Virus record (IMG/VR): IMGVR_UViG_3300020190_000299
Span: 1-27,179 of that record
Strand: one strand, 5' to 3'
Origin: a virus
DNA: 27,179 nt
Shown: one piece after another, positions 461 to 26,362 of the stretch
How the letters are laid out: every line of letters starts with the position of its first letter
Numbering within the stretch: the first letter of the stretch is position 1
Translations under genes and position numbers: made by a program
Notes under the pieces: model-generated
Databases searched by the model: none
Told to the model about the DNA's origin: nothing
What the model saw: the letters and a program-made list of their open reading frames with translations, nothing else

Positions 461-1216
461 ATGATAAGTTTAGTTCAATTACTTAAGGAAGTTCAAGGAC
501 AACCTAAAGCTATTTTCATGGCTGGGCCTGCTGGATCTGGTAAAACAACTATACTTAATCAACTTGGGCTTAAAAATTTCACTATAATAAACGTAGATGA
601 CGTTTATGAAAAACTGTTAAAAACAGAACTAGGTAAAGAAGATTTTGTTTCTATGTCACCTGAAGAACTTTCATCTGCTGCCAAATTAATGGGCAAAGCC
701 AGAGCAATAACCAAAGAAAAAGAAACTCAACTTACCCAATCCCAAAAAAATATTATAATTGATGGTACAGGTGCTGCTTCAAATCCATTACTTAAGAAAA
801 AAAAGGATTTAGAGGCAATAGGATATGACACATTTATGATATTACTTTACGTATCACCTATGACTTCATTAACTCGTAATGCTCAACGTAATAGAAGTTT
901 ACCTACAATTGCTGTATTAAAAAGTTGGGAAGGCCTTATAAAAAATATTAATACTTATAAACAAGCATTTGCTAATAATATTACATTAATTAATAATGAC
1001 CCTCCAGGATATGAAGTTGATACTTCTTTTGATCCTGAAAGGATTCAAAAATTATTTCCTATGCCTATAGGAAAACAAAAATCCCCTGAAGAACTGGAAA
1101 GATCTAAAGCAGATAAAGAAAAAACAAATCAAGAAATAAAATCACTTTTAAATATAGAGCGTGAATTTGATACATTAGATGTAGCAAAAAATAAAATAAA
1201 TGAATTCGTTAGTTAA
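461..1216 (+). CDS. P-loop nucleotide kinase (AAA_33/zeta-toxin-like) with N-terminal leader
   Basis: 251-aa P-loop kinase. The Walker A motif GPAGSGKT lies at residues 22-29, followed by a TIINVDDVYEKLL segment and IIIDGTGAAS, the layout of zeta-toxin or polynucleotide-kinase-like phosphotransferases. LTRNAQRNRSLP is a plausible Arg-containing lid. The substrate cannot be told. The first strand of the fold (KAIFMAGP) starts only at about residue 16 and is preceded by MISLVQLLKEVQGQP. That leader resembles those of many neighbouring virion-type proteins and carries an L-K-E triplet like a T4 gp21 cleavage site. The other P-loop kinase in this window, at 14001, has no such extension. The last 17 nt overlap the next gene. 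Kinase fold confident; packaging into the virion is inference. Confidence 0.75.
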   Translation: MISLVQLLKEVQGQPKAIFMAGPAGSGKTTILNQLGLKNFTIINVDDVYEKLLKTELGKEDFVSMSPEELSSAAKLMGKARAITKEKETQLTQSQKNIIIDGTGAASNPLLKKKKDLEAIGYDTFMILLYVSPMTSLTRNAQRNRSLPTIAVLKSWEGLIKNINTYKQAFANNITLINNDPPGYEVDTSFDPERIQKLFPMPIGKQKSPEELERSKADKEKTNQEIKSLLNIEREFDTLDVAKNKINEFVS

Positions 1217-1430
1217 ATCACTTATACAACCTTTATTAGAGGAAACTAAACAAGGTATTGCTTTAATACCTGGTGGTTTTAAACCACCTACATTAGGTCA
1301 TTTTTATTTAGTTGATGAGGTTGCAAAACGTCCTGAAATGTCAAAAGTTATTATTTTAATAGGACACAAAGACAGGGATGGAATCACTAAAGAAGAAAGT
1401 GAACAAATATGGAATATCTACAGAAAATAG
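1200..1430 (+). CDS. Nucleotidyltransferase, N-terminal fragment ending at an in-frame TAG
   Basis: Encodes residues 1-76 of a cytidylyltransferase-like (HxGH-type) nucleotidyltransferase. The nucleotide-binding motif is seen as GGFKPPTLGHF, followed by VIILIGHKDRDGIT and EQIWNIYRK. It stops at TAG 1428-1430, but the same frame runs on without another stop through 1431-1556 into the ORF at 1557-2669. The second half of this domain's active site (RVSGTNARLAI, the counterpart of the ISSTxxR motif) lies after the TAG. The fragment alone should be inactive, so the TAG is either read through or a nonsense mutation or sequence error. The leader MNSLVKSLIQPLLEE precedes the first strand. The start overlaps the upstream kinase by 17 nt, indicating translational coupling. 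Confidence 0.7.
   Translation: MNSLVKSLIQPLLEETKQGIALIPGGFKPPTLGHFYLVDEVAKRPEMSKVIILIGHKDRDGITKEESEQIWNIYRK
1428..1430 (+). other. In-frame TAG codon splitting a continuous reading frame
   Basis: This TAG is codon 77 of an otherwise uninterrupted 490-codon frame running from 1200 to 2669. The frame is open on both sides and the two halves of one enzyme domain lie on either side. The context reads AAA-TAG-TTA, giving IYRK-stop-LPSNVE in protein. It could be amber readthrough or suppression, a recent nonsense mutation, or a single-base assembly error. None of the other genes in the window ends in TAG. Confidence 0.8.
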
Positions 1431-1556
1431 TTACCATCTAATGTTGAAATTCAAATTTCACAAAATCCTTCCCCTGTAACAGATGTAAATTCAATTATTA
1501 AAAATGACCCAACAAGTTTTTATTTTCCTATAGTAGGAATTAGAGGAGATGAAGAT

Positions 1557-2669
1557 ATGGGTGATGTAAAACGATTTGATAGTTTAAAAGGAAAATATGA
1601 TAACTTTGAACTTATTATAATTAAAAGTGAAGGAGAAGGAGATCGCGTAAGTGGTACAAACGCTAGATTAGCAATTTTAAATAATGAATATGAATCGTTT
1701 CAACGTTATTTACCTACTGAAATATCAAAAGAAGATAGAGATAAAATTTGGTCTATATTAACTAAAACTCCAATAGAAGAAGGAACTTGTGGTTATACTA
1801 CAGATGTAAAAACTAATAAAAAATTAACTACACCCGGAGGAATTAAAGAAATGTATGCTGAACCAAGCAAATTCAGTTACCCTACAATGTTATCATCTTT
1901 AATTCAATATATGTTAAGTAAAGGAATGAATATTCGTCCTTTACCTAAAGTTAAATTTATAGAGGATGATATAGAAAATGCTAGAGATTTCTTTGGTAAA
2001 ACAGCATATTATAATCCAAATGAAAAATCAATTGTGCTTTACACAATGGATCGTCATCCAAAAGATGTAATGCGTTCATTTGCACATGAAATGATTCATC
2101 ATCTACAAAATTGTGAAGGTCGTTTAGGTAATATTACAACTCAAAATACAAACGAGGAAGGAAATTTGCCTGAAATTGAAAAAGAAGCATATGAAAAAGG
2201 CAATATGACTTTTCGCAATTGGACAGATACTATTACTGAAGGTGTTTTAAGAGAAGAAACAGAAGATAGTCTTTTTTCATATTCTAGTGATTTTAAACCT
2301 GGAGTAAATATTACTGTTATATTTAAGGAAAATGAAAACTATAAAATTTTTAAACCATATTTTGATGAATATGGGTATGGTTTTTATTACCCACAAGATA
2401 AAACAATTTTTATTGATGGTGAAACCTTTATTAATTCTAATTTAGATAAAAATGATTTAAAAATTGTTGAAGCCCATGAAGTAACCCATTTACTTTTAGG
2501 ACATACAGGACCTTATTCAGCAGATGATGAAATGGATGCAGATTTAGGAGCCTATTTATTGTTAAAAAATAAAGGATTATCTACAGAAAAATTAGAAAAA
2601 CAATTTAAATTTCGACATGGAGTTGAGTTTAGTGAAGAATTACTTGAACGAGTAAAAGACATGTTGTAA
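1557..2669 (+). CDS. Nucleotidyltransferase C-terminal half fused to two HExxH metallopeptidase-like domains
   Basis: Continuation of the frame interrupted at 1428; the ATG at 1557 is probably an internal Met. Read through, the whole protein is 489 aa. The first part completes the nucleotidyltransferase (VSGTNAR). A first Zn-peptidase-like domain follows with HEMIH at fragment residues 177-181. A linker (TITEGVLREE) comes next. The second metallopeptidase-like domain has HEVTH at 307-311 and a downstream acidic DDEMDADLGAY segment that could hold the third zinc ligand, as in ImmA/IrrE-like peptidases. The linker itself contains an I-T-E triplet resembling a prohead-protease site. It is unknown whether both peptidase motifs are active. 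Alternatively, a free C-terminal protein could start at 1557. Domain calls rest on motifs only. Confidence 0.65.
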   Translation: MGDVKRFDSLKGKYDNFELIIIKSEGEGDRVSGTNARLAILNNEYESFQRYLPTEISKEDRDKIWSILTKTPIEEGTCGYTTDVKTNKKLTTPGGIKEMYAEPSKFSYPTMLSSLIQYMLSKGMNIRPLPKVKFIEDDIENARDFFGKTAYYNPNEKSIVLYTMDRHPKDVMRSFAHEMIHHLQNCEGRLGNITTQNTNEEGNLPEIEKEAYEKGNMTFRNWTDTITEGVLREETEDSLFSYSSDFKPGVNITVIFKENENYKIFKPYFDEYGYGFYYPQDKTIFIDGETFINSNLDKNDLKIVEAHEVTHLLLGHTGPYSADDEMDADLGAYLLLKNKGLSTEKLEKQFKFRHGVEFSEELLERVKDML

Positions 2670-2687: not shown

Positions 2688-3269
2688 ATGAAAAAAATAC
2701 CTACATTATTAGATTTATACGAATCAATTAGGCCTAAATATATTATTTTTTGTGATATGGATGGTGTATTAGCTGATTTTGATCAAGGATATGCTGATTT
2801 AACAGGAATGTCAACCCAAGAAGCTAATGCTATAGGCAAATCATATTTTTGGGAACTTTTTAGATCTAAATTTAAAGAAATACAAGACGAAAAGACTTTT
2901 TGGACAAATTTACCCCCTCAACCAGGAGGACCAGAATTATGGAATTATATTAAATCATATACCCCAAATATCCTTTCAGCTCCTGCAATAGATTTTAGTC
3001 TTCCACCTAGTGAACAATTAAGTTATGAAAAAAATCAAGCTATTCAAGGTAAAAAAGAATGGATTTCTAAAAATTTAACCAATGTGGGCAAAGAAATTTT
3101 TGTCCCTGCTTCTCAAAAAGCTGCATTTGCTAGTCCAAATCGAATACTTATAGATGATATGAAAAAAAATATTGATGCTTGGGAAGCAGCTGGAGGTATA
3201 GGAATCCATCATATCTCAACATCAAAAACAATTGAAGTATTAAAAACATTAGGCATATATGAAAGATAA
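2688..3269 (+). CDS. HAD-superfamily phosphatase, 5'(3')-deoxyribonucleotidase-like
   Basis: 193-aa HAD-fold hydrolase. Motif I is DMDGVLADFD, with the nucleophile Asp at residue 23 and the acid/base Asp at 25. The conserved ILIDDMKKNIDAW segment near the C-terminus matches motif IV, and the K in ASQKAAFA could serve as motif III. The pattern FCDMDGVLADFDQGY with a late IDD-x-x-x-N-I resembles NT5C-type deoxyribonucleotidases, which dephosphorylate nucleoside monophosphates. The fold proper starts at about residue 17 and is preceded by MKKIPTLLDLYESI, another leader of the shared type with an L-Y-E triplet. The gene follows the fusion protein after 18 nt and overlaps the next gene by 11 nt. 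Function in nucleotide salvage is family knowledge; delivery in the virion is inference. Confidence 0.75.
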   Translation: MKKIPTLLDLYESIRPKYIIFCDMDGVLADFDQGYADLTGMSTQEANAIGKSYFWELFRSKFKEIQDEKTFWTNLPPQPGGPELWNYIKSYTPNILSAPAIDFSLPPSEQLSYEKNQAIQGKKEWISKNLTNVGKEIFVPASQKAAFASPNRILIDDMKKNIDAWEAAGGIGIHHISTSKTIEVLKTLGIYER

Positions 3270-4455: not shown

Positions 4456-5049
4456 ATGGCCGATAATTTTGACTTAAAAAAATTTTTAAAAGAAAGCAAA
4501 GCTTTAGAGAATTTAAATCCAATATTAAGAAAAGAAAACCTAAACGAAGGAGATCTTCGTGCTAAAATTAAAGAAATGATTTTAGCTGAGCTTGGAAATC
4601 CCGAATATTCAGACTATGATGAAATAGAAGATATATACAATGATGAAAAAGAAGCACTTAGATCTTTTGGTGTACGTGGTAATATGGATGAACCTATAGG
4701 TGATTATTACAGTGATGATTTTGATCCAAGGTTAATGGAAGCTAAAAAAGATGAAGAAGAAGTTGAAGTAGAAGATACTGAAACAGAAGAAGCACCTGCT
4801 GAAGAAACACCTAAAGATGAAGAAGCACCTGCTGAAGAAACACCTAAAGATGAAAAAGCACCTAAAGGTGGAGGTGGTTTAGAAGATGTAGCTGCTAATA
4901 TGGAGGGAACAGAAGGTGAACTTATGAAAAATTTAATGGATGCTCTTAAAATTGCTAAAGGCATGAATAATGAAAAGCTTGAAACACAAGTTGGAAATAC
5001 ATTAAAATTTTTCGTTAGTGAATATATTGGAAACGAAGAAGAAAAATAA
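4456..5049 (+). CDS. Acidic virion-type protein with leader and PEAT-rich repeat linker
   Basis: 197-aa strongly acidic protein. It opens with MADNFDLKKFLKES, almost identical to the leader of the gene at 9679 in both protein and DNA. A second helical module follows at about residues 32-49 (EGDLRAKIKEMILAEL), similar to elements in the genes at 5333 and 20869. Residues about 95-140 are a low-complexity Glu/Ala/Pro/Thr linker that includes an 11-residue unit repeated twice. A short helical tail (LMKNLMDALKIAKG) ends the protein. No enzyme motif is seen. Its composition and setting suggest a head-internal or scaffold-associated protein. The leader contains an L-K-E triplet where T4-type prohead proteases would cut. 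Function unknown. Confidence 0.6.
   Translation: MADNFDLKKFLKESKALENLNPILRKENLNEGDLRAKIKEMILAELGNPEYSDYDEIEDIYNDEKEALRSFGVRGNMDEPIGDYYSDDFDPRLMEAKKDEEEVEVEDTETEEAPAEETPKDEEAPAEETPKDEKAPKGGGGLEDVAANMEGTEGELMKNLMDALKIAKGMNNEKLETQVGNTLKFFVSEYIGNEEEK
4786..4851 (+). repeat. 33-nt direct tandem repeat, two copies
   Basis: Two identical head-to-tail 33-nt units (4786-4818 and 4819-4851), followed by a partial third copy beginning GAAAAAGCACCT. The repeat is in frame and encodes an 11-residue Glu/Ala/Pro/Thr/Lys/Asp unit of a disordered linker. Exact DNA identity suggests recent slippage or duplication. Confidence 0.85.
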
Positions 5050-5096
5050 AAATGTATAATATAAAAAAATTAATTTGTAATATTGTAAAAAAACTC

Positions 5097-5110
5097 ACCT
5101 TCGAAAAGGT
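5097..5110 (+). other. Small hairpin in the leader of the histone-like gene
   Basis: The arms ACCTT and AAGGT enclose a CGAA loop within the 111-nt gap between the acidic-protein gene and the histone-like gene. The neighbourhood (CTCACC before, GGGTGGTGTG after) is more GC-rich than its surroundings and could pair in a competing way. There is no T-run, so it does not look like an intrinsic terminator. It could be a processing site or a 5'-UTR element; support is weak. Confidence 0.25.
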
Positions 5111-5160
5111 ATGTTTCGGGTGGTGTGATACTAAATAATAATCTATATAAAATAAAATCT

Positions 5161-5331
5161 ATGAACACAACAGAAATTTTAGAAGCAATTAAAGCTGAAG
5201 TAGCTATTTTAGAAACAGAACATGCAAAAACTTCAAAAGCAGCTCGTAGTAGAGCTAGAAGTGCAGCTAATTCAATTAAAAAGTTAGCAGCTTATTTTAA
5301 AAAGACTTCAACTACAGAAGACAAAGCATAA
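5161..5331 (+). CDS. Histone H1-like small basic DNA-binding protein
   Basis: 56-aa protein starting at the ATG at 5161, preceded by an A-rich leader. A GTG at 5125 in the same frame would add 12 unconvincing residues. The N-terminal half is a helix (TTEILEAIKAEVAILETE) and the C-terminal half is Lys/Arg/Ala-rich (SKAARSRARSAANSIKKLAAYFKK). The length and the K-A-A-x-x-x-R-A-R pattern resemble the small histone-H1/Hc1-like proteins common in Bacteroidota and their phages, which bind DNA without sequence specificity. Its place inside a block of virion-type genes fits a role in condensing packaged DNA or acting on host DNA early in infection. Assignment rests on composition and pattern only. 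Confidence 0.55.
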   Translation: MNTTEILEAIKAEVAILETEHAKTSKAARSRARSAANSIKKLAAYFKKTSTTEDKA

Positions 5332-5332
5332 A

Positions 5333-6265
5333 ATGCAAAAACAAAGAACCAAAAAAGTAATTAACAAAACATCCAATGGAACTTCCGTTGGATCTTTTGG
5401 TTCTTTAAACGAAGGATTTATTCCAACTGCTGAACAATCTAAAGAGATAATAGATAAATTTAAATCAATTATTAATACTCGTTTAGATAAATTATATAAT
5501 GCTAAAGGTGCTGATGGTGAGTTATATGCTTATGGAATTGCTGTTAACCAAGTAAAGAAAAAAGCAGAACAACCTAAAGAAACACCTGCAGAAGAAACAA
5601 CAACTGAAGAACCAACAACTGAAGAACCAATGGATAAAGAAACTAAATTAAAAGAAATGATTCAAGCGGCTTTATCTAAGCCATTGTCTGAAAAGAAAAA
5701 ATCATTTCCTGATTTAACAGGTGATGGTAAAGTAACCCAAGCTGATATTTTAAAAGGTAGAGGTGTAATTGATGAATATGAAACCTCAGAAGAATTAATT
5801 GCAGATGAACCAATTTCAGAAGATTTAGATCTAGGTCATCAAGATGATGAACCACATATGCTTAAAGCAGATTTATATCGTATTGGAAAATACGCTATGG
5901 AACTTTATAAAATGATTGATCAGTTTGAAGGTGAACAAGAAGTTGATTTTCCACATTGGTGGCAATCCAAAATAATCAAAGCAAAAGACATGCTAGTCTC
6001 AGCAAAACATTATCTTGATTTTGAATTAAAAGAACCTCAAATTGATGCTATAGTTGATGTTGCTGCTCAAGAAGATATAATTAATGAAAAATTAAAACCT
6101 TCTATGGGTGCTGGTGCATATGTAGATGATTTTAAACAATCTGATGCACCACAGTTTAAAGGTAAATCAAAAAAGAAAAAACAAAAAATGGCTGTAGCAG
6201 CTTATTTGTCTGCTAAAGATAAAATTAAAGAAGCTATTCTAGCTAAACTTAAAGACAAAAAATAA
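5333..6265 (+). CDS. Virion-type protein with EF-hand/dockerin-like loop
   Basis: 310-aa protein. The N-terminus is basic (MQKQRTKKVINKTSNG), followed by a helical region and a Glu/Pro/Thr linker at about residues 80-102. A short helical module with (L/I)-x-E-like triplets follows (LKEMIQAALSKPLSEKKK), then a calcium-binding-type loop DLTGDGKVTQAD at 127-138 with Asp or Thr at the ligand positions 1, 3, 5, 9 and 12. After an acidic stretch comes a domain DEPHMLKADLYRIGKYAMEL...DFPHWWQSKIIKAKD, and finally APQFKGKSKKKKQKMAVAAYL. I recognise the last three blocks as recurring in uncharacterised proteins of marine T4-like phages. No catalytic motif is seen. The first 75 nt of the gene hold a strong nested inverted repeat. 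Probably a structural or head-internal protein. Confidence 0.6.
   Translation: MQKQRTKKVINKTSNGTSVGSFGSLNEGFIPTAEQSKEIIDKFKSIINTRLDKLYNAKGADGELYAYGIAVNQVKKKAEQPKETPAEETTTEEPTTEEPMDKETKLKEMIQAALSKPLSEKKKSFPDLTGDGKVTQADILKGRGVIDEYETSEELIADEPISEDLDLGHQDDEPHMLKADLYRIGKYAMELYKMIDQFEGEQEVDFPHWWQSKIIKAKDMLVSAKHYLDFELKEPQIDAIVDVAAQEDIINEKLKPSMGAGAYVDDFKQSDAPQFKGKSKKKKQKMAVAAYLSAKDKIKEAILAKLKDKK
5343..5406 (+). repeat. Nested inverted repeat (possible structured mRNA element)
   Basis: The outer arms AAAGAACCAAAA (5343-5354) and TTTTGGTTCTTT (5395-5406) are perfect 12-bp complements. Inside, 5371-5393 is a second inverted repeat: ATCCAATGGAA pairs with TTCCGTTGGAT with one G-U pair, giving a stem of about 9 bp with a loop of about 5 nt. 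The inner right arm abuts the outer right arm with one base between, so the helices could stack. The whole element lies in codons 4-25 of the gene beginning at 5333. Confidence 0.6.
5601..5630 (+). repeat. 15-nt direct tandem repeat, two copies
   Basis: The unit CAACTGAAGAACCAA occurs twice head to tail (5601-5615 and 5616-5630). It encodes a Thr/Thr/Glu/Glu/Pro unit of the acidic linker in the EF-hand protein gene. Confidence 0.8.
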
Positions 6266-6744
6266 TGACTCGCGATCAACTTAAAAACAGAATCAGAGGT
6301 TTAGTTAAACAGGTTTACTCTGTAAATCAAGTAACACCTGAAGAGGCTGCTCAATATGATGAGCTAACTAAATTTCCTGAACTTAAAAAAGTTATAGTTG
6401 ATTTATTGACAAACGAATACGATAATTTTTTAGACTCAATTGATTGGGTATCACCACGTCCAACCACATTTAGAATTAATTTAAAAAATGGACAAGAGAT
6501 TTATTTAATTTATGGTAAACGTAGTTGGATAACTCAAGTAGAAGGCAAAAAATATTATTTATTAAATTTACCTGAAGAAGAAAGAGCAGCACAAGCTATT
6601 GCTCGTATATTAAGATACGGAACAAAAGAGGAAGAAACAGAAACTGGAGGAGCAGCTGCAACACCCCCAGGAGGTGAAACCCCACTAGCATCAGAAGAAA
6701 CACCAGCTGAGACCCCACCAGCAGAAGAAACACCAGAGGCATAA
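6265..6744 (+). CDS. Virion-type protein of unknown function with Pro/Glu/Thr-rich tail
   Basis: 159-aa protein. The N-terminus MTRDQLKNRIRGLVKQVYS is an amphipathic basic helix like the other leaders but lacks an (L/I)-x-E triplet. A compact domain follows with strands TTFRINLKNGQEIYLIYGKRSWITQVEGKKYYLLNL split by turns, and a helix EEERAAQAIARILRYG. From about residue 122 to the end the protein is low-complexity Glu/Thr/Pro/Ala/Gly. The start overlaps the previous stop (TAATG), and the same arrangement links it to the next gene, so all three are translationally coupled. I do not recognise a function. The folded core looks like a small beta-rich module, probably structural or regulatory. Confidence 0.55.
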   Translation: MTRDQLKNRIRGLVKQVYSVNQVTPEEAAQYDELTKFPELKKVIVDLLTNEYDNFLDSIDWVSPRPTTFRINLKNGQEIYLIYGKRSWITQVEGKKYYLLNLPEEERAAQAIARILRYGTKEEETETGGAAATPPGGETPLASEETPAETPPAEETPEA

Positions 6745-7745
6745 TGGATATTTTAGAACAATTTTTACATAGTATAGCCTACAAGTTTCCTAAAGGATAT
6801 CCTGATATAAAGAATCCTAAAGATATGGAATTGTTAAATAAATTATTAAATGAAGTAGTTGATACAAAAACATCTCTTAATGAACAACAAACAGAATATG
6901 ACGATAGAATTAAAGAAACATTAAGTGTTGAGCAAATTCCTATTTGTCAAACCCCACTTGAACTAGGAAAAGATTTTAATTTAAGTGGAAAAGATGGTGA
7001 AATTTGGAAACAATTATTTGGTGTTAAACCAATAGCTGCTCGTACAGGTAAACAAACAGCAGGTTCAGGCAATGGTGAAGTTTCAACATATTGGGCTTTC
7101 CAATATAATAAAACTAAAAAATTCCAAGTAGAAGATGGACGAGGAGATGATAATCCTGATTTAATAATTAATAATTTAGGTGTTGAAATCAAGGATTATG
7201 GTTCTAAAATGATTACTTTAGGTAAATTCTTTAGGGATAAAAAATCATACGGTTTACTTAGTAACTTATTTGGCTTTAAAAGTTTATTAGAAGCAGTTAA
7301 AGATGGAAAATTCCCTGAAGAATCAGCCTCTAACCCAGGTACATTTAAACCATCAGAATTAGTTGATGCTTCTCGTTTAATGTTAAATTTTTATAAAGAA
7401 ACTAAATTAAAAGAATTTGCTGAAAAATATCAATTTGAAGTAATAATAAACTTGTTTAAACGAGTTGAAGCCATTTTACAAGAACTTGGGTTAAGTGGAA
7501 GCACTAGCCCTGAAGATGTAGCTAGTGGAATACTTAAAGTAATGATTAAAACTAAACTCAGTAAAAAACCTTTATTGGGTCAAGATAAAGGATATGTATT
7601 AAATGTAAATGTAAATGGATTAGGAGATTTCGTTGAAATTACCAACGAAAAAATAGATGCCTTAGATAATGAAGCTTTACTAGTCAACATAGCTGTAGCT
7701 TCAGCTGAAATGAAAATGAATTTTGACGCTTTATTTAGAGATTAA
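6744..7745 (+). CDS. Possible PD-(D/E)XK nuclease-like phage protein
   Basis: 333-aa protein. The opening MDILEQFLHSIAYKFPKGYPD is a pattern I associate with uncharacterised T4-like phage proteins. In the middle, NPDLIINNLGVEIKDYG gives PD at 138-139 and E148-I-K150, the D...(D/E)-x-K signature of restriction-endonuclease-fold nucleases, with a preceding conserved-looking GKQTAGSGNGEVSTYWAFQ block. The C-terminal half is helical and then strand-rich (GYVLNVNVNGLGDFVEIT). If the signature is real, the protein would cleave DNA with divalent metal. The short D-to-E spacing (9 residues) keeps this tentative. The start is coupled to the preceding gene by TAATG; the end precedes the next ATG by one nucleotide. 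Confidence 0.5.
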   Translation: MDILEQFLHSIAYKFPKGYPDIKNPKDMELLNKLLNEVVDTKTSLNEQQTEYDDRIKETLSVEQIPICQTPLELGKDFNLSGKDGEIWKQLFGVKPIAARTGKQTAGSGNGEVSTYWAFQYNKTKKFQVEDGRGDDNPDLIINNLGVEIKDYGSKMITLGKFFRDKKSYGLLSNLFGFKSLLEAVKDGKFPEESASNPGTFKPSELVDASRLMLNFYKETKLKEFAEKYQFEVIINLFKRVEAILQELGLSGSTSPEDVASGILKVMIKTKLSKKPLLGQDKGYVLNVNVNGLGDFVEITNEKIDALDNEALLVNIAVASAEMKMNFDALFRD

Positions 7746-8421: not shown

Positions 8422-8828
8422 TGGATAGATTAAACAGAATAATACAAGAAGTCCTACAAGAGAAAAAAGAAAAACGTGACCGTTGTCTTCGTATTGCAGA
8501 CCGCAAATACGACAAACCATCCGCTTACAAATCAGGTGCTGTAGTTAAGTGTCGTAAAGGAATGATTTGGAAAGGATTAAAAGAAGAATTACTTTTAGAA
8601 AAAGTTAAAGAAACATTACGCACTTGGTTTAAACGTAAAGGTGAACCTGGTGGAAAAGGTGGTTGGGTTGATTGCAACGCTCCAATTAGAAAAGATGGAA
8701 AAATTAAAGGTTATAAAGCATGTGGCAGAGAAAAAGGTGAAACCCGCTCAAAATATCCATCATGTCGTCCTACCCCAGCAAAATGTAAAGATAAAGGCAA
8801 AGGAAAAACATGGGGTAAAACAAAATGA
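8421..8828 (+). CDS. Small basic Cys-rich virion-type protein
   Basis: 135 aa from the ATG at 8421, which shares one nucleotide with the previous TGA. TTG and GTG codons just upstream are less likely starts. The leader MDRLNRIIQEVLQEKKE has I-Q-E and L-Q-E triplets. The first domain reads CLRIADRKYDKPSAYKSGAVVKCRKG and the second LRTWFKRKGEPGGKGGWVDCNAP ... YKACGRE ... YPSCRPTPAKC. The regularly placed Cys residues suggest one or two zinc sites, and the protein is highly basic, suiting contact with packaged DNA. Both domains are known to me as recurring modules in environmental T4-like phages without assigned function. The end overlaps the next start by ATGA. Confidence 0.6.
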   Translation: MDRLNRIIQEVLQEKKEKRDRCLRIADRKYDKPSAYKSGAVVKCRKGMIWKGLKEELLLEKVKETLRTWFKRKGEPGGKGGWVDCNAPIRKDGKIKGYKACGREKGETRSKYPSCRPTPAKCKDKGKGKTWGKTK

Positions 8829-9352
8829 TTTCTTTAATTAAAATATTAAACGAGATATTGTCTGAAAGTGACCCTAAAACAGGCACAGGTAAAAAACCTA
8901 AAGGATCAGGTCGTCGTTTATACACAGATGAAAATCCCAAAGATACAGTTAGCATTAAATTTAAAACTGCTCAAGATATAAAAGATACGTTATCTAAAAC
9001 ATCATTTAAATCAAAAAAACACGCTCGTAAATCTCAAATTATTAATTTGATTCACCAACGTGTTAGAGCAGCTTATGCTAAAGCAAAAGATCCTGAAGTT
9101 AAAGCTAGATTAAAAAAAGGACTTGAATATATTACTGCTAAAAAAGAGGCATCTAAAGAAAAAACAGAACGCTTACGTAAAATGAAAGAAGCCTCTGACC
9201 CTCAAGCAGGTAAAGCTGCACCTTATGGTTCAGGATATGCTCCTATACAACAAAATGAAGACTTATTAAATGAAAAATGTTGGAAAGGTTATACTCAAAA
9301 AGGAATGAAAAAGATGTTTGGTAAAAAATATCCTAATTGCGTAAAAAAATGA
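8825..9352 (+). CDS. Basic virion-type protein with leader and C-terminal Cys module
   Basis: 175-aa basic protein. The leader MISLIKILNEILSESDPK has L-N-E and L-S-E triplets and closely resembles MISLVQLLKEV of the kinase at 461. The body begins GTGKKPKGSGRRLYTDENP, then a helical DNA-binding-like region (KSKKHARKSQIINLIHQRVRAAY) and a long basic helix. It ends with a separate module ENLNEKCWKGYTQKG-like sequence (here NEKCWKGYTQKGMKKMFG, then KYPNCVKK) with two Cys. The same end module recurs in many cyanophage and marine-phage proteins of unknown role. Start and stop both sit in ATGA overlaps. No enzyme motif was found; DNA binding inside the capsid is a reasonable guess. Confidence 0.6.
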   Translation: MISLIKILNEILSESDPKTGTGKKPKGSGRRLYTDENPKDTVSIKFKTAQDIKDTLSKTSFKSKKHARKSQIINLIHQRVRAAYAKAKDPEVKARLKKGLEYITAKKEASKEKTERLRKMKEASDPQAGKAAPYGSGYAPIQQNEDLLNEKCWKGYTQKGMKKMFGKKYPNCVKK

Positions 9353-20442: not shown

Positions 20443-20872
20443 GTTAAAGGAAATAGTCCGTAAAAAACTCAAAGAAATGAGTGCTACTAATATAGGTGGT
20501 GCTACTGCTACATCTGGAGAAGGAATTGGAATGGCTACGAAACCTGCTTTTAATAAAAATAAAAATATTTATTATTATAAGTTAGGATTTAAACCTGTTT
20601 CTAATATTAAACCTAAATCTTACGATATTAAAAAATTGTGGGAAGAAGAAAAGGAAAAAACTGGAGCAGATAAATTTCAAGATGATAGAGTTAAAGAATT
20701 TGATCAAGTTGAAAGTTTACTTAAACAATTATCTCCACTTATATCAAACGCAAAAAACGAAACTATAGAATATTACGCTGCTAACCCGGGATCGTATGAT
20801 ATCTATAAACCGTCTTCAATGGTTTTAGCATATATTCAAAAAGCAGTAGATTTATTAAAACAAAAACAATGA
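20435..20872 (+). CDS. Head-module protein with leader, unknown function
   Basis: 145-aa protein. The leader MDKLKEIVRKKLKEMSAT contains L-K-E triplets and is followed by a Gly/Ala/Thr-rich stretch (NIGGATATSGEGIGMAT) that looks flexible, then PAFNKNKNIYYYKLGFKPV. The C-terminal half is helical (EEEKEKTGADKFQDDRVKEF, QVESLLKQLSPLISNAKN) and ends in LLKQKQ. A similar Gly/Ala/Thr stretch after an N-terminal helix occurs in cyanophage head-region proteins as I recall them. It is coupled to both neighbours (8-nt overlap upstream, ATGA downstream). Probably a small core or virion protein. Confidence 0.55.
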   Translation: MDKLKEIVRKKLKEMSATNIGGATATSGEGIGMATKPAFNKNKNIYYYKLGFKPVSNIKPKSYDIKKLWEEEKEKTGADKFQDDRVKEFDQVESLLKQLSPLISNAKNETIEYYAANPGSYDIYKPSSMVLAYIQKAVDLLKQKQ

Positions 20873-22536
20873 AAAAAACATTACAAGATCAGTATTTATT
20901 AATTAAAGAGGGTAAAGGACATAAAGGTGTTTTCCTTGCAGATGCTAAACGTAATTTTCCCCATATTGTACCAAATTCTGCTACATTTGAGGAAGCTGCT
21001 GCTTCTCTTAAAACCAAAAACATTATCTCAGAAAATGTAATTGGTTTAACTGCTGTTGCTGGATATGAACCAAGAAAAAAAGAATCTTACGAAACGGCAT
21101 TTGAGGCATTTTTGGCTGAAGCTAGAAAAGCAAAAGAAAATGAAGACGAGAAAGTAAAAGCAGAAGAGAAAAAAGTCTCTAAACCTGTAGAAAAAGATCT
21201 TGAAAAAAACTTTGACTATTCAGACGATAAAAACCCAGATAATTTGATATTTGATCAAATCATGATGGGATATTACGCTGAAATGAAAGATCCTAAAAAT
21301 GCTGATAAAACAATGCAACAATTAAAAGACATTGTATTGAAAAATTTAGCAAAAGACCCAATTCACTATACAAAAGATGGTCAATTTGGTGTTAAAGATT
21401 TAGGATATGTGACTGAACATCCTGGTTTAGGTACTCCAAAAGAACCTAAAGGAAAATATGCTTCATCTGGATATGGTAATTTGAGTGAAGGTAAAGAAGA
21501 AAGAGGTGAAATTAAAACAAGCCTTGAAAAACAAATTAAAGAACCTTCAAGTAAAACAAAACCATCGGAAGAGCAAATTAAAGCTAAATTAAAACAAAAA
21601 CGTGAAGAAGAACTTAAACGTAGAAAAGAAGCAGGTGAATCACTTGAAGAAATTTCATTACGTAAAGCTATTCAAGAAATGATTGATGCTGAATTAGAAG
21701 AAGCATATCAATTAGTAAATATTCGCCCACAAGTAAGTGATAAAGAAAGAGAAGAAAGAGATCCACAACCTTTTCTTACTGTATATTTAACAGCTTCGAC
21801 TGAAAAATTAATGAAAAAAAACCAAGATCTAAGACTTTTAAGAAACCCCAAAAACCCAGAAGAAATTACAGGTATAGCTATTCGCTCTACATTATTAGTT
21901 TCTAAAAATTTAGAAACATTACCATATGATATAAATTCAATGTTTGCAAGTTTTTTAAATACTGCTAATAATATTGGGGGTAAAATTAATCTTCCTACAA
22001 AAGAAGGAACTATAGACAATTATACTGTTTTAAATAATGTTAATGTAGGAAGAGATGAAAGGCTTTCATTTAAAACTCCAAATCCAAAGTACCAAAAACC
22101 AATGGAAGAAATTTTACGTGAAGGTGTAGAAAAAGATTTAGCTGATATTAATAAAGAAGCAGAACATGAAGTTCTACAATCTAAACTAGATAAAATTGAT
22201 GCTTTAATTGATAGTCGTAAATCTAAACTTAGTAAATTAGACGAGGATGAAGATATGAAAGCTTTAACTGACAAGAAAAAAGTTAAAGAACTTGAAAAAG
22301 ATATTAAAGCTTTAGAAAAAGCAAAATCTAAGGTTGAAAAAATGCTTAGCAAAACTAAAGGTAAGAAAAAAGAAATCATTGATGAAGATGAACCAATTGA
22401 AGAAGCTGAAGGAGATTTAGATCCTAAAGAATTAGATGCTGCTGAAGCATCAATAAAAAGTATTCAAGCTTTAGCAGATAAAATATCTAAAACAAAACTT
22501 TTTGAAGAAGATCCTGAAGAATCTGAAGAATATTAA
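20869..22536 (+). CDS. Large charged helical head-module protein
   Basis: 555-aa strongly charged protein. The N-terminus MKKTLQDQYLLIKEGKGHKG contains an I-K-E triplet. A conserved-looking stretch follows (FLADAKRNFPHIVPNSATFE). There is a further FEAFLAEARKAKE module and, near residues 262-280, EEISLRKAIQEMIDAELEEA, which resembles the internal modules of the genes at 4456 and 5333. The C-terminal third is coiled coil (LQSKLDKIDALIDSRKSKL, then KELEKDIKALEKAKSKVEKM) and a very acidic end. No enzyme motif. Position just before gp21 and composition suggest a scaffold-core or internal head protein, possibly with several prohead-protease sites. Similarity to T4 gp67/gp68 cannot be judged by eye. 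Confidence 0.6.
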   Translation: MKKTLQDQYLLIKEGKGHKGVFLADAKRNFPHIVPNSATFEEAAASLKTKNIISENVIGLTAVAGYEPRKKESYETAFEAFLAEARKAKENEDEKVKAEEKKVSKPVEKDLEKNFDYSDDKNPDNLIFDQIMMGYYAEMKDPKNADKTMQQLKDIVLKNLAKDPIHYTKDGQFGVKDLGYVTEHPGLGTPKEPKGKYASSGYGNLSEGKEERGEIKTSLEKQIKEPSSKTKPSEEQIKAKLKQKREEELKRRKEAGESLEEISLRKAIQEMIDAELEEAYQLVNIRPQVSDKEREERDPQPFLTVYLTASTEKLMKKNQDLRLLRNPKNPEEITGIAIRSTLLVSKNLETLPYDINSMFASFLNTANNIGGKINLPTKEGTIDNYTVLNNVNVGRDERLSFKTPNPKYQKPMEEILREGVEKDLADINKEAEHEVLQSKLDKIDALIDSRKSKLSKLDEDEDMKALTDKKKVKELEKDIKALEKAKSKVEKMLSKTKGKKKEIIDEDEPIEEAEGDLDPKELDAAEASIKSIQALADKISKTKLFEEDPEESEEY

Positions 22537-22539
22537 ATC

Positions 22540-23172
22540 ATGAATAAGCAACTCTTAATAGAAACCAGACATTTTGTTCCCCAACCTGTTCGCCTTTTAG
22601 AAGGATTAAAAGGTAATGGAAATATCTTTGTTGAAGGTATTTTAGCTACCGTGGAGGTTAAAAACGGTAACGGAAGATACTACAAACGTGAGTTGTGGGA
22701 ACGTGAAATTGACAATTTCCAACAAAAAATAAACCAAAAAACAACAGAAACATGTGGTGAATTAGATCACCCTGATTCTCAAGTTATAAATTTAAAAAAT
22801 GCATCCCATGCCATTAGAAAAATGTGGTGGGATGGAGATGAAATATGGGGAACAGTTGAAATCTTTTCAGACCCAGGACCAAAAGGAACAGTATCTGGTC
22901 GTATAGCGGGTGCTTTAGTTAATAATGGTTTAACAATTGGTATTTCTTCTCGTGGAATGGGTTCCCTCAAACAAATGGGTGAAACAATGGAAGTACAAGA
23001 TGACTTTGAATTATTAACTTGGGATCTAGTTTCTAATCCTTCAAACCCTGATTCATGGATGAAAAATGGCCAATTAAACGAATCAAGAACAACATATTTA
23101 GATCCATATGCACGTACAAATTCAATTTTAACTGAGATTTTGTGTGCAAAAGGCACATGCCCGATATTTTAA
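22540..23172 (+). CDS. gp21: Prohead core protease (T4 gp21-like)
   Basis: 210-aa serine protease that matures the prohead by cutting scaffold, capsid and internal proteins, in T4 after (L/I)-x-E. The T4-like start MNKQLLIETR is followed by LYIEG-like NIFVEGILATVEVKNGNGRYY. The catalytic His is in CGELDHPD (H77), and the Ser in TIGISSRGMGSL (S136 or S137), matching T4 GELNHP and GVSSRGLGSL. PSNPDSWM also matches the T4 PSAPDAWV. The C-terminal SILTEILCAKG contains an L-T-E triplet where self-cleavage could occur. It lies in T4 order just before gp22 and gp23 and is followed by a terminator. Its presence underpins the leader-cleavage hypothesis. Confidence 0.95.
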   Translation: MNKQLLIETRHFVPQPVRLLEGLKGNGNIFVEGILATVEVKNGNGRYYKRELWEREIDNFQQKINQKTTETCGELDHPDSQVINLKNASHAIRKMWWDGDEIWGTVEIFSDPGPKGTVSGRIAGALVNNGLTIGISSRGMGSLKQMGETMEVQDDFELLTWDLVSNPSNPDSWMKNGQLNESRTTYLDPYARTNSILTEILCAKGTCPIF

Positions 23173-23195
23173 AATATACAAACCGGTGAAAAATT

Positions 23196-23219
23196 GCTTT
23201 CTTTTTGAGAGCTTTTTTT
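23196..23219 (+). terminator. Intrinsic terminator after gp21
   Basis: The arms GCTTTC (23196-23201) and GAGAGC (23207-23212) pair with one G-U around a five-T loop and are followed by seven T's and a further T-rich run. It separates gp21 from the highly expressed scaffold and capsid genes. The remaining gap to 23358 is non-coding, with a run of seven C's at 23240-23246 and AT-rich sequence that may hold a promoter, though no clear box was identified. Confidence 0.7.
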
Positions 23220-23358
23220 ATTTTTTGTAATTTTTCCATCCCCCCCACATATATATAACGTGAATATGCTGCCCCTCATAACTATGTAGCATTATATTAA
23301 TGAAATTCTATTACGTTTGATAAATAAACGTACTTTCCCAACAAAAAATTTAGGAAAA

Positions 23359-24654
23359 ATGGCAAAAAACAGAGAAATGCTCAAAGAAGCAATCGCTGAA
23401 GCTAAAGCTGTAAAAGAAATGGCAATAGCAAACGCAAAAGCAGCTCTAGAAGAAGCCTTTACACCTCAACTTAAATCAATGTTATCTTTGAAACTTCAAG
23501 AAATGGAAATAGAAGAAGCTAAAGACGTAGAAGAAACGAATGAAGCTGAATACACGGAAATGGAAGAAGTAAAAAAAGACACGATGGAAGTTGATTTGGA
23601 AGAGCTTTTAGCAGAGCTAGAATTAGAAGAAGATGATGATGTAGAAGAAAATCTTTATGAAGCTGAAGAAGAAGGCGAAAAAGAAGGTGAAGAGGAAGAA
23701 GGCGAAGAAGGTGACATGGAAATGGAAGACCTTTCAGACGATGAAATTAAGGAAATGATTGAAGACGTAATCGCACAAATGATTAAAGACGGTGAGTTAG
23801 AAGCAGGACCTGAATTCGAAGGTGAAGAAGAAGGTGAAGAAATGGAAATGGGTGCTGAAGAAGAGGAAGAAGTAGATTTAGCAGAACTTTTAAGAGAAAT
23901 TGAAGAAATGGAAGAAGAAGTGTACGAAAAAAAGGAAGAAACTAATGAAGTATTTGGATTTTTTAAAATAAATAATTTGCTAAATTATTTAATTGATGAA
24001 AAAAAAGTAGATAAAAAAGTTGCTAAGAATATTGTTAATAATCTTGATAAAAATCCAAATAATGCTGAGGCTCGAGAGGACCTTAAAAAATATATCACAA
24101 AAGAAGATATAAAGGATTTCTTAAACTATACAACGAACGATACAAGAGGACCTAAAAATCCATTAGTCGGTGCCCCTTTAAAAGATCTTCAAAACATAGT
24201 TACAACAGCCCTTAACGGTACTCCATATTCCCCAGTACCCACAACTTTTGGTCCAGACGGTAGAGGTGGTATTGATATGTCAACTAATGAATCTGAAGAA
24301 ATAAAAAAAGAACTTGAAGAAGCTTATTCTACAATTGAAACTTTAAAAACAGAAATTAACGAAATCAATTTACTGAACGCTAAGTTACTCTACTCAAACA
24401 AAATCTTCAAAGCTAAAAACTTAAACGAAAATCAAAAGGTAAAAGTATTAAGTTCATTTGACAAAGCTAAAAACGTAGGTGAAGTAAAAATGGTATATGA
24501 AACTTTAAACGAGGGTATTAAAGTTAAAAAAGAAATCATTAAAGAAAACCTAGGTAGAGCTTCAAAATCAACTGTTACTCCTACCGCAAAACAACCAATC
24601 GTAGAGTCAAACGATGTATTTAAAAGAATGCAAAAATTGGCTGGATTAATTTAA
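23359..24654 (+). CDS. gp22: Prohead scaffold (T4 gp22-like)
   Basis: 431 aa from the ATG at 23359 (MAKNREMLKEAIAEAKAV). The frame is open to a TTG at 23317, but that extension is unlikely. Gp22 forms the scaffolding core around which gp23 assembles and is degraded by gp21. Helical N-terminus with many (L/I)-x-E triplets (MLKEAIAEAK, SLKLQEMEIEEA, LEELLAELELEE), a long Glu-rich middle, and a C-terminal coiled coil ending FKRMQKLAGLI, typical of T4-like scaffolds. Between about residues 199 and 311 sits a non-acidic block (FGFFKINNLLNYLIDEKKV ... PVPTTFGPDGRGG) that looks inserted. It is longer than T4 gp22 (269 aa). It precedes gp23 by 31 nt. Confidence 0.85.
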   Translation: MAKNREMLKEAIAEAKAVKEMAIANAKAALEEAFTPQLKSMLSLKLQEMEIEEAKDVEETNEAEYTEMEEVKKDTMEVDLEELLAELELEEDDDVEENLYEAEEEGEKEGEEEEGEEGDMEMEDLSDDEIKEMIEDVIAQMIKDGELEAGPEFEGEEEGEEMEMGAEEEEEVDLAELLREIEEMEEEVYEKKEETNEVFGFFKINNLLNYLIDEKKVDKKVAKNIVNNLDKNPNNAEAREDLKKYITKEDIKDFLNYTTNDTRGPKNPLVGAPLKDLQNIVTTALNGTPYSPVPTTFGPDGRGGIDMSTNESEEIKKELEEAYSTIETLKTEINEINLLNAKLLYSNKIFKAKNLNENQKVKVLSSFDKAKNVGEVKMVYETLNEGIKVKKEIIKENLGRASKSTVTPTAKQPIVESNDVFKRMQKLAGLI

Positions 24655-24685: not shown

Positions 24686-26362
24686 ATGTCAAGTATTAAT
24701 TCTCTTTTAGAAAGCTCAGCCAACGGGTGGAGAAACATGCAAAGTGATGCTGCACGTATGGCGAGCAAATGGGCTAAAACAGGCCTATTAGAAGGATTAG
24801 GAAGCGAAGTTGAAAAAAACAACATGGCTTTGATCCTCGAAAACCAAGCAAAACAACTTGTTGTTGAGCAATCTTCTATGACAACTGGTGGTGCCGGTAC
24901 TGGTACTTTTACAGCTGGACAAGGTGAGCAATGGGCTGGTGTAGCTCTTCCATTGGTACGTAAAGTATTTGGTTCTTTATCAACTAAAGAATTCATGTCA
25001 GTACAACCAATGAACCTACCTTCAGGTCTAGTATTTTTCCTAGATTTCCAATATGGACAAGATAAAGTTGCTCCTATCGGAAACTTTGGACCTGCTGGAA
25101 ATGTTTATGATGATAATGCTTCTATGTATGGTGATACTAACCCGGCTAATGGTGCAGACCCTACTAACGGTTTGTATGGTGCTGGTAGATTTGCTTATTC
25201 AATCAACCAATTTTCACAATCATTTACAATTGCTACTGGTTCAGTAGATTGGGTTGATGTTGAATACAATTCAACATACTCAGGTTCAGCAGCATTAGCT
25301 ACTCTTTCATCAATTACTGTATCTGCTGCTAATATTGCAGCATTGTCTCATTCAATTGATACTAAAGGTGTTCGTGCGTTTGCTTTAACAGATAATGGTG
25401 CTACTGTTGCTAATTTGTTACCACAATATACTACTTATACTGCAGCTGGTGATGTGAAATTTATCTTTAATTCAAACACAATAAATGGAAATGCATCCCG
25501 TACATTATTCTACAACGCTCAACCAGTTGATAACAAACGTGGTGATTTTGAAGATAATAGTGGTGCTGGATATGCAAATGCTGAATCAACAGCTGCTGAT
25601 GCATTAGCTATTCCACAAATTGATATTAAAATGAAATCTGAAGCTATTGTTGCTAAAACAAGAAAATTGAAAGCACAATGGACACCAGAATTTGCTCAAG
25701 ATTTGAATGCTTACCAATCATTAGATGCTGAAGCTGAATTGACTTCAATTATGTCTGAGTATATCGCTCTAGAAATTGATCTAGAAAACTTAGATATGTT
25801 GATCCAAGATGCTTCTGCAGCAGATGAATACTGGTATGCTGTTAATAATCGTGTATTGAATGCTGCTAAAACTAATTATGATAATGCTAATTTCTATAAT
25901 ACACAAGGCCAGTGGTTCCAAACTTTAGGAACTAAAATGCAAAAAGTTTCTAACAAAATTCACCAAAAAACATTACGTGGTGGTGCAAACTTCCTAGTAT
26001 GTTCTCCAAGTGTAGCAACTATCCTTGAATCAATCCCAGGATTTGCTTCAACTTCTGATGGTGATGCAGCAAAAGCAAGCTATGCATTTGGTATCCAAAA
26101 ATCAGGTAATTTAAACAACCGTTATACAGTATACAAAAATCCATACATGACTGAAAATGTAATTTTGATGGGTTATAGAGGATCTCAATTCCTTGAAACA
26201 GGTGCTGTATTTGCTCCATATGTTCCACTTATCATGACTCCATTAGTGTACGATCCAGAAACCTTTACACCAAGAAAAGGTTTATTGACTCGTTATGCTA
26301 AGAAAATGATTCGTCCTGAATTTTATGGTCGTATCTTTGTTAATGATTTACATGTTCTATAA
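24686..26362 (+). CDS. gp23: Major capsid protein (T4 gp23-like)
   Basis: 558-aa hexamer subunit of the head. Clear gp23 blocks are MSVQPMNLPSGLVFFLDFQYG, IVAKTRKLKAQWTPEFAQDL, DAEAELTSIMSEYIALEI, NFLVCSPSVATIL, YKNPYMTENVILMGYRG and FAPYVPLIMTPLV. The N-terminal region resembles the gp23 propeptide (ILENQAKQLVVE against T4 IFENQEKDF), and the Glu at residue 61 before QSSMTTGG lies close to the T4 cleavage site at Glu65. Residues about 185-305 are Ser/Ala/Thr/Asn-rich and have no obvious T4 counterpart; they may be a surface insertion. A-rich leader with no Shine-Dalgarno. It ends the head operon at a strong terminator. Confidence 0.96.
   Translation: MSSINSLLESSANGWRNMQSDAARMASKWAKTGLLEGLGSEVEKNNMALILENQAKQLVVEQSSMTTGGAGTGTFTAGQGEQWAGVALPLVRKVFGSLSTKEFMSVQPMNLPSGLVFFLDFQYGQDKVAPIGNFGPAGNVYDDNASMYGDTNPANGADPTNGLYGAGRFAYSINQFSQSFTIATGSVDWVDVEYNSTYSGSAALATLSSITVSAANIAALSHSIDTKGVRAFALTDNGATVANLLPQYTTYTAAGDVKFIFNSNTINGNASRTLFYNAQPVDNKRGDFEDNSGAGYANAESTAADALAIPQIDIKMKSEAIVAKTRKLKAQWTPEFAQDLNAYQSLDAEAELTSIMSEYIALEIDLENLDMLIQDASAADEYWYAVNNRVLNAAKTNYDNANFYNTQGQWFQTLGTKMQKVSNKIHQKTLRGGANFLVCSPSVATILESIPGFASTSDGDAAKASYAFGIQKSGNLNNRYTVYKNPYMTENVILMGYRGSQFLETGAVFAPYVPLIMTPLVYDPETFTPRKGLLTRYAKKMIRPEFYGRIFVNDLHVL

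Follow-up and report, generated by a model that had tools for sequence, protein, structure and literature searches.

A phage multi-enzyme chain with predicted prohead-protease sites at its module borders

A gene on the plus strand of virus record IMGVR_UViG_3300020190_000299 (positions 1200..2669, 489 codons, single in-frame TAG at 1428-1430) encodes in one chain a short leader, a nucleotidyltransferase and two zincin-like domains, and comparison with its relatives strongly supports the view that this chain is a polyprotein whose borders are predicted prohead-protease sites. The window, that is, the whole stretch of DNA analysed, is this record of 27,179 bases (GC 31%). The module structure, the enrichment and placement of the sites and the presence of an S77 protease in the same genomes are backed by computation; the cutting and packaging of the chain, its ejection and the functions of its enzymes are what we infer.

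We put at roughly three in four the probability that the leader directs the packaging of the chain, that the S77 protease cleaves it behind [LI]xE while the head matures, and that the freed enzymes are ejected together with the DNA. The amphipathic N-terminal leader would serve as a capsid-targeting sequence and carry the chain into the core of the prohead; the S77 (gp21-type) protease would then cleave the leader and every linker behind [LI]-x-E as the head matures. In the read-through protein, P0001, the predicted cuts lie in the leader (residues 12-15), in linker 1 (IEE 192-194, IKE 215-217) and in linker 2 (ITE 345-347, LRE 350-352). Once cut apart, the nucleotidyltransferase and both zincin-like domains would be present in the capsid as individual enzymes and would enter the host with the ejected DNA. 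There, the most likely role of the nucleotidyltransferase would be to synthesise NAD, or a related dinucleotide, at an early stage of infection, for NAD supply or repair, and the two zincins (modules B and C) would most likely act on host proteins by proteolysis.

The chain gene and its in-frame stop

The preliminary description had assigned a nucleotidyltransferase, two HExxH domains and a packaging-type leader to the open reading frame at 1557-2669. This frame is real (370 codons, including HEMIH and HEVTH), but it starts inside the nucleotidyltransferase domain and so does not hold a complete one, and the leader, which does exist, lies upstream of it at the gene start at 1200 (MNSLVKSLIQPLLEETKQ). 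Positions 1200-1430, upstream and in frame, encode this leader and the first half of the nucleotidyltransferase, ending at the TAG at 1428-1430. Because the motif GGFKPPTLGH lies 5' of the stop and SGTNAR lies 3' of it, the domain is complete only when the TAG is read through. As two contigs near-identical to the window, L002 and L004, have no stop at this position, with the chain gene intact in L002 and, across the portion present, in L004, we take the TAG to be either a variant or a mistake of assembly; the window's own copy of the chain is broken by it.

Recoding of TAG was considered and ruled out, since no other large gene of the window needs TAG as a sense codon and the near-identical contigs lack the stop. 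Under translation table 15, the other large genes of the window keep essentially the same extents as under the standard reading, and no tRNA genes were found in the window. The protein analysed throughout was the 489-residue read-through product.

Domains of the read-through protein

The structure model of P0001 (46 sequences, mean pLDDT 74.5) comprises three folded parts, at residues 19-188, 227-347 and 358-489, with low pLDDT mainly at residues 1-15, 190-225 and 346-356. The leader (1200..1253, +) has a predicted cut after LLE or LEE. It is followed by module A (1254..1766, +; model residues 19-189), a nucleotidyltransferase of the HIGH superfamily. Structure comparison aligned 156 residues of this module with the PPAT 5h16_B (Z 16.4, rmsd 3.0), and its sequence matched the cytidyltransferase family phrog_3041 (E 4e-11); module A thus has the NMNAT/PPAT superfamily fold, with PPAT and NaMN/NMN enzymes both matching.

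Linker 1 (1767..1877, +), with low pLDDT and the sites IEE and IKE, leads to module B (1878..2240, +), whose terminal linker site is ITE. Linker 2 (2241..2270, +), which carries LRE as its second site, precedes module C (2271..2666, +). The sequence TITEGVLREE, noted in the preliminary description between the HEMIH and HEVTH motifs, is indeed present there and provides both sites of this linker. Structure prediction, proposed at that time as a check, places both motifs in helices: HEMIH (296-300) in a helix at residues 287-305 and HEVTH (426-430) in one at residues 417-432. The outcome that was named there as refuting the fusion therefore did not arise.

Structure matches for these two modules (VIA) were obtained with a separate model of B and C, and they cover mainly B and say little about C. 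The leading matches of module B are mostly zinc metallopeptidases, headed by Wss1 (5xbn, Z 8.2, rmsd 3.0, 102 aligned) and including the DPC-repair protease 6mdx (Z 7.2, rmsd 3.6, 102 aligned), PprI (8sln, Z 7.2, rmsd 3.8, 90 aligned) and ArdC (6sna, Z 6.8, rmsd 3.1, 87 aligned). Since these Z values are modest (8.2 and below), we term module B 'zincin-like' only. Module C resembles IrrE/M78 proteins, with weak Pfam M78 and Foldseek matches; as its Pfam M78 score of 18.2 bits lies below the gathering cut-off of 22, we did not assign it to the Peptidase M78/IrrE family. Its best Foldseek match was IrrE (3dti, E 0.063, probability 0.80), and sequence searches of the PDB with module C and with a B+C profile returned weak matches, at E 0.11 and above. 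PADLOC gave no match for the chain or for module D (a third HExxH domain, see below) and a single marginal one, BrxF (E 0.026), for the neighbouring kinase, while NCBIfam models matched the chain only far under their cut-offs.

Head genes and leader-bearing neighbours

The proposed cutter is encoded in the window itself: the product of 22540..23172 (+) is an S77 (T4 gp21-type) prohead protease (PF03420, E 3.8e-26, 92.2 bits against a cut-off of 27). A T4-type portal (PF07230) and a terminase are also present, together with a Gp23-type major capsid protein (24686..26362, +), whose GLLE/G (the slash marking the likely cut) near residue 36 is probably a further site of the protease, independent of the chain. 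Among 11 capsid proteins compared, GLLE/G stands at the same place in eight, and all 11 have [LI]xE within residues 16-60. In a survey of 30 hand-chosen records, mostly longer contigs plus the isolate Flavobacterium phage immuto, S77 was found in 18 and a Gp23 capsid gene in 17; because 17/17 records with the capsid gene also have S77, records without the protease are most simply explained as fragments.

Upstream of the terminase, many products start with a short hydrophobic stretch that ends in [LI]xE. They include a stand-alone zeta/P-loop kinase (461..1216, +; leader MISLVQLLKE/V), a homologue of which lies within the chain of contig L153; a stand-alone HAD phosphatase (2688..3269, +; own leader MKKIPTLLDLYE/S), which is fused into the chain in relatives; and a stand-alone basic protein, module J (8825..9352, +; DPKTGTGKK, leader MISLIKILNE/ILSE/S), found within chains in relatives.

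Two further features of the head region were observed. Acidic, core-like head genes at 4456-7745 and 20869-24654 contain many [LI]xE triplets, as would be expected for scaffold or core proteins that are cut in pieces. The scaffold-like protein of the window (23317-24654) has the C-terminus RMQKLAGLI, and a leader of phage immuto (L211:23708-24172, N-terminus) reads FRRMQKLAGIITE; this leader may mimic the scaffold tail.

Relatives and module exchange

Searching viral contigs with P0001 returned 242 pattern matches with 230 related stretches among them, from which 79 loci were retained; the HAD protein and the basic protein, each used as a query in a further scan, added loci. The resulting set held 2,313 distinct plus-strand open reading frames from 210 loci and the window, some loci overlapping on one contig. 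Eleven module profiles were built, with names of our own except where backed by Pfam or PHROGs matches: the nucleotidyltransferase A, the HExxH domains B and C, a third HExxH domain D (HEIEH), a zinc ribbon E, the HAD domain F, G and H of unknown nature, a ParB-like module I, the basic module J and a copper-binding module K. At least one module occurs in 260 reading frames and at least two in 117, in 40 architectures, and a chain has two or three HExxH domains. We rejected a bacterial source for the chain, as none of 40 pattern matches in genome contigs was a relative.

In the phage collection, the isolates with records matching P0001 were Flavobacterium phage immuto (four records) and cyanophage P-RSM1 (two), six records in all. 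In immuto (host Flavobacterium sp. LMO8), the homologue, 907 aa long, bears the annotation 'NadR-like protein', the HAD gene adjoins the chain gene and the S77 protease gene lies within the same head region.

Several chains are of unusual composition. One of 1,614 aa (L153:3409-8253) combines the nucleotidyltransferase, two HExxH domains, an Fe/Mn superoxide dismutase (PF02777, E 1e-28), the basic module, a zeta-type kinase and HAD, mostly divided by [LI]xE. Two others (L188:1099-4938 and L052:2943-5918) carry a plastocyanin/azurin-type copper-binding domain, an odd cargo for a phage head, and the former also contains DUF192. Weak DUF6782 and ART-PolyVal matches occur among the chains, the chain of L074 being one with a weak ART-PolyVal match. 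The 'virion protein' SSCSM1_29 of cyanophage S-SCSM1 and the product of Bellamy gene 123 (L240:3227-4780, L241:2801-4657) consist of small modules in series, cysteine-rich or basic, with [LI]xE between several of them; one small module of this type (KCWKGYTQKGMKKMFGKKYPNCVKK) ends the window gene at 8825-9352. Spacers of the forms DKLGKDPFGLNQFAREL and DGKAAPYGSGYxxLxE recur between modules in L044, L060, L062, L072 and L074 and are perhaps internal targeting or spacer elements.

Stand-alone module genes, too, are found. The preliminary description had held that relatives encoding the domains as unrelated separate genes would speak against its proposal; most of these genes, however, have an [LI]xE leader of their own and so do not refute it in the sense intended.

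[LI]xE at module junctions

The chains contain 273 junctions, or 151 after removal of near-duplicates, and [LI]xE is present in 128 of the 151. Linkers longer than 60 residues (33) were dropped to keep chance occurrence low, leaving 118, of which 100 hold the triplet, compared with 40.9 +/- 5.0 after residue shuffling (maximum 55 of 300 shuffles) and with 11.4 +/- 2.9 (maximum 19) in windows of the same length inside modules of the same proteins. Control patterns in the same linkers, with shuffle means in brackets, gave 16 (32.1) for [LI]xD, 36 (40.1) for [LI]xxE, 27 (42.5) for [LI]E, 40 (42.5) for [LI]xK, 53 (41.2) for Ex[LI] and 26 (15.6) for [VM]xE. Eighteen of the 118 linkers lack [LI]xE; when V and M are allowed as well, a site is found in 113 and absent from 5. 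After thinning of the chains to below 90, 60 and 50% identity, the triplet was retained in 135/152, 16/21 and 9/11 junctions, respectively, each count exceeding all 1000 shuffles. Over 264 non-redundant module starts in all contexts, leaders included, 213 have a site within about 25 residues, against 95.8 expected.

The site is kept when the neighbour changes. Module D has it after B in 8/9 cases, after E in 6/6, after H in 1/1 and after a leader in 1/1. Alignment of 24 non-redundant module D sites on the conserved GxYD start showed E at -1 in all 24, L (19), I (3) or M (2) at -3 and N in 16 at -2, with no residue further upstream common to half of them. Non-redundant leaders end likewise, with [LI]xE in 27/29 before A, 18/21 before HAD, 19/26 before J, 3/3 before E and 1/1 each before D and I; before B in first position, it was found in only 2/7. 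Taken together, the module D and leader data indicate that the point of module exchange coincides with the site.

Could the linker triplets be remnants of leaders from formerly separate genes, now fused into a polyvalent protein that is packaged and injected whole? We consider this unlikely. Several stand-alone module genes do carry [LI]xE leaders, and the N4 virion RNA polymerase is an example of a polyvalent protein described as packaged unprocessed (PMC5512222). Yet many linkers keep the triplet without a leader helix (for example, PKPLNE/GRY), which is hard to reconcile with leader remnants alone, given that the site stands at the exchange point; before module D, moreover, conservation is limited to -3 and -1 (with mostly N at -2), and remnants would leave unexplained why the triplet is avoided in module interiors. 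Still less probable is that the linkers are processed by the chain's own zincin domains, with the S77 protease uninvolved. Each chain has two to three HExxH domains, and zincin autoprocessing has been proposed in print for polyvalent proteins (PMC5512222), but the linker motif equals the specificity of gp21, and the same triplet ends the leaders of the zincin-less HAD and J proteins and occurs in the major capsid protein.

[LI]xE inside modules

Within 175 non-redundant module cores, we counted 145 [LI]xE triplets, against 259.7 +/- 14.0 expected, with the controls [LI]xxE (252 versus 259.1) and [LI]E (243 versus 261.9) near expectation. Depletion was strongest in D (22 observed versus 72 expected) and A (39 versus 69) and weak in B (23 versus 31) and F (43 versus 62), while the small module G lay above expectation (11 versus 8). 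The leader-bearing kinase family reached 0.38 of expectation. In control sets, several of them small, the ratio of observed to expected was 1.28 for terminase, 1.02 for portal, 1.07 for PhoH, 1.09 for an FAD protein, 1.33 for a leaderless kinase, 1.19 for a GIY-YIG-like protein and 0.86 for HAD. Among the results that count against our reading, a leaderless exonuclease also reached only 0.73, and HAD cores are only mildly depleted in [LI]xE, with [LI]xxE low as well. In the window's chain, three triplets (LPE 323, IVE 422, LLE 481) fall in predicted helices of the folded parts and, if the reading holds, should be protected or left uncut.

Comparison thus lends strong support to the earlier suggestion of a polyprotein bounded by prohead-protease sites, through junction enrichment, depletion in module interiors, retention of the site across changing neighbours and an S77 gene in the window. 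A cytoplasmic multi-enzyme fusion that never enters the head, with leader and linkers as ordinary helices, is the least probable alternative: its domains are metabolic enzymes and we place the chain in the head by deduction, but it would account neither for the enrichment of the site relative to [LI]xxE, [LI]E and [LI]xD, nor for its depletion in cores and not in terminase, portal and PhoH, nor for the published virion location of relatives of module A.

Implications

More broadly, we lean towards the view that T4-like phages of aquatic bacteria use such chains as recombinable cargo, with modules swapped at [LI]xE joints, behind one leader, and cut in the capsid. The cargo would comprise the nucleotidyltransferase, several zincins, the HAD phosphatase, the kinase, ART-like, ParB-like and copper-binding domains and superoxide dismutase, and one gene would deliver a matched enzyme set at infection. 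If true, this would be a polyprotein strategy for head-packaged phage effectors, and a sequence rule (a leader and [LI]xE joints, avoided inside modules) would allow injected proteins to be recognised, true ends included, wherever a phage has an S77 protease. Enzyme fusions encoded close to head genes, which puzzle annotators, would then become candidates for early effectors. The chain would also offer a natural design by which a phage head could be loaded with several proteins. The chain reading is open to test in the isolate immuto.

Comparison with known systems

Nucleotidyltransferases of the HIGH superfamily, like module A, are known as NMNAT or cytidylyltransferase virion proteins of cyanophages (PMC9602691, PMC10665884). 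Mass spectrometry found the S-SCSM1 NMNAT among the virion proteins, although the authors of that study caution that carry-over is possible (PMC9602691), and NMNAT-like proteins were reported from virions of S-CBWM1, S-SZBM1 and S-CREM2 (PMC10665884). Among relatives of the chain, these cyanophage nucleotidyltransferases alone are reported as virion proteins. The S-SCSM1 gene starts MKSFLQFLKE/A, and this leader form, MKSxxQFLxE/A, is shared by the S-SCSM1 and Bellamy nucleotidyltransferases. Eight of ten phage nucleotidyltransferases inspected have [LI]xE at the leader end; of the exceptions, S-B43 has FSE, and Cr30 lacks such a leader and has several [LI]xE inside. Unlike the chain, the cyanophage NMNATs have no fusion to HExxH modules, and the accessible text of the two papers does not remark on the leader cut site. 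In giant phages, a gp21-related protease cuts head proteins such as the ejection protein gp53 of SPN3US after A-X-E, at several sites per propeptide (PMC10052503); according to the accessible text, all identified cuts except the protease's own yield N-terminal propeptides, not separate enzyme modules as predicted for the chain.

The preliminary description knew of no described fusion of this type, which was too broad a statement: polyvalent proteins (Iyer et al. 2017, PMC5512222) are likewise large, with disparate enzyme domains among which zincin peptidases are common, and the window's A-B-C chain combines at least two domains of disparate activity in one polypeptide, as they do. Polyvalent proteins also include ParB and ART domains, the latter with weak matches in the chains, and are predicted to be injected. 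Their processing was proposed to occur by their own zincins or by C-terminal assemblin-like peptidases, whereas the chains have a gp21-type site at most junctions and avoid it inside modules. In the accessible text of that paper, 'linker' and 'capsid-targeting' are absent, and the single mention of 'prohead protease' that it shows belongs to the reference list. The searched literature, which had most subscription papers outside its scope, contained no report of a phage whose cargo polyproteins are cut at sites of the prohead protease; multi-domain, zincin-bearing phage proteins predicted to be injected being already known (PMC5512222), the prohead-protease-delimited form, not found in print, appears to be the new part.

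The closest parallel in mechanism is phage T4, whose gp21 cleaves after L/I-X-E and whose internal proteins have targeting leaders of 10-19 residues (PMC9026906). The chain, too, has a short leader ending in [LI]xE (residues 1-15) and an S77 protease in the same genome. With an aspartate at the cut position of T4 IPIII, processing is blocked and targeting is not (PMC9026906), which parallels the lack of [LI]xD enrichment at our junctions and argues for site specificity. T4 IPI-III and Alt (PMC9026906) share with the chain the short leader ending in L/I-X-E, the gp21-type protease and, as predicted for the chain, ejected enzymes; they differ in that each gene provides one cargo protein, while the chain gene provides several modules with the same sites between them. 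In mechanism, then, the chain would amount to a polyprotein version of a T4 internal protein, with the build of a polyvalent protein.
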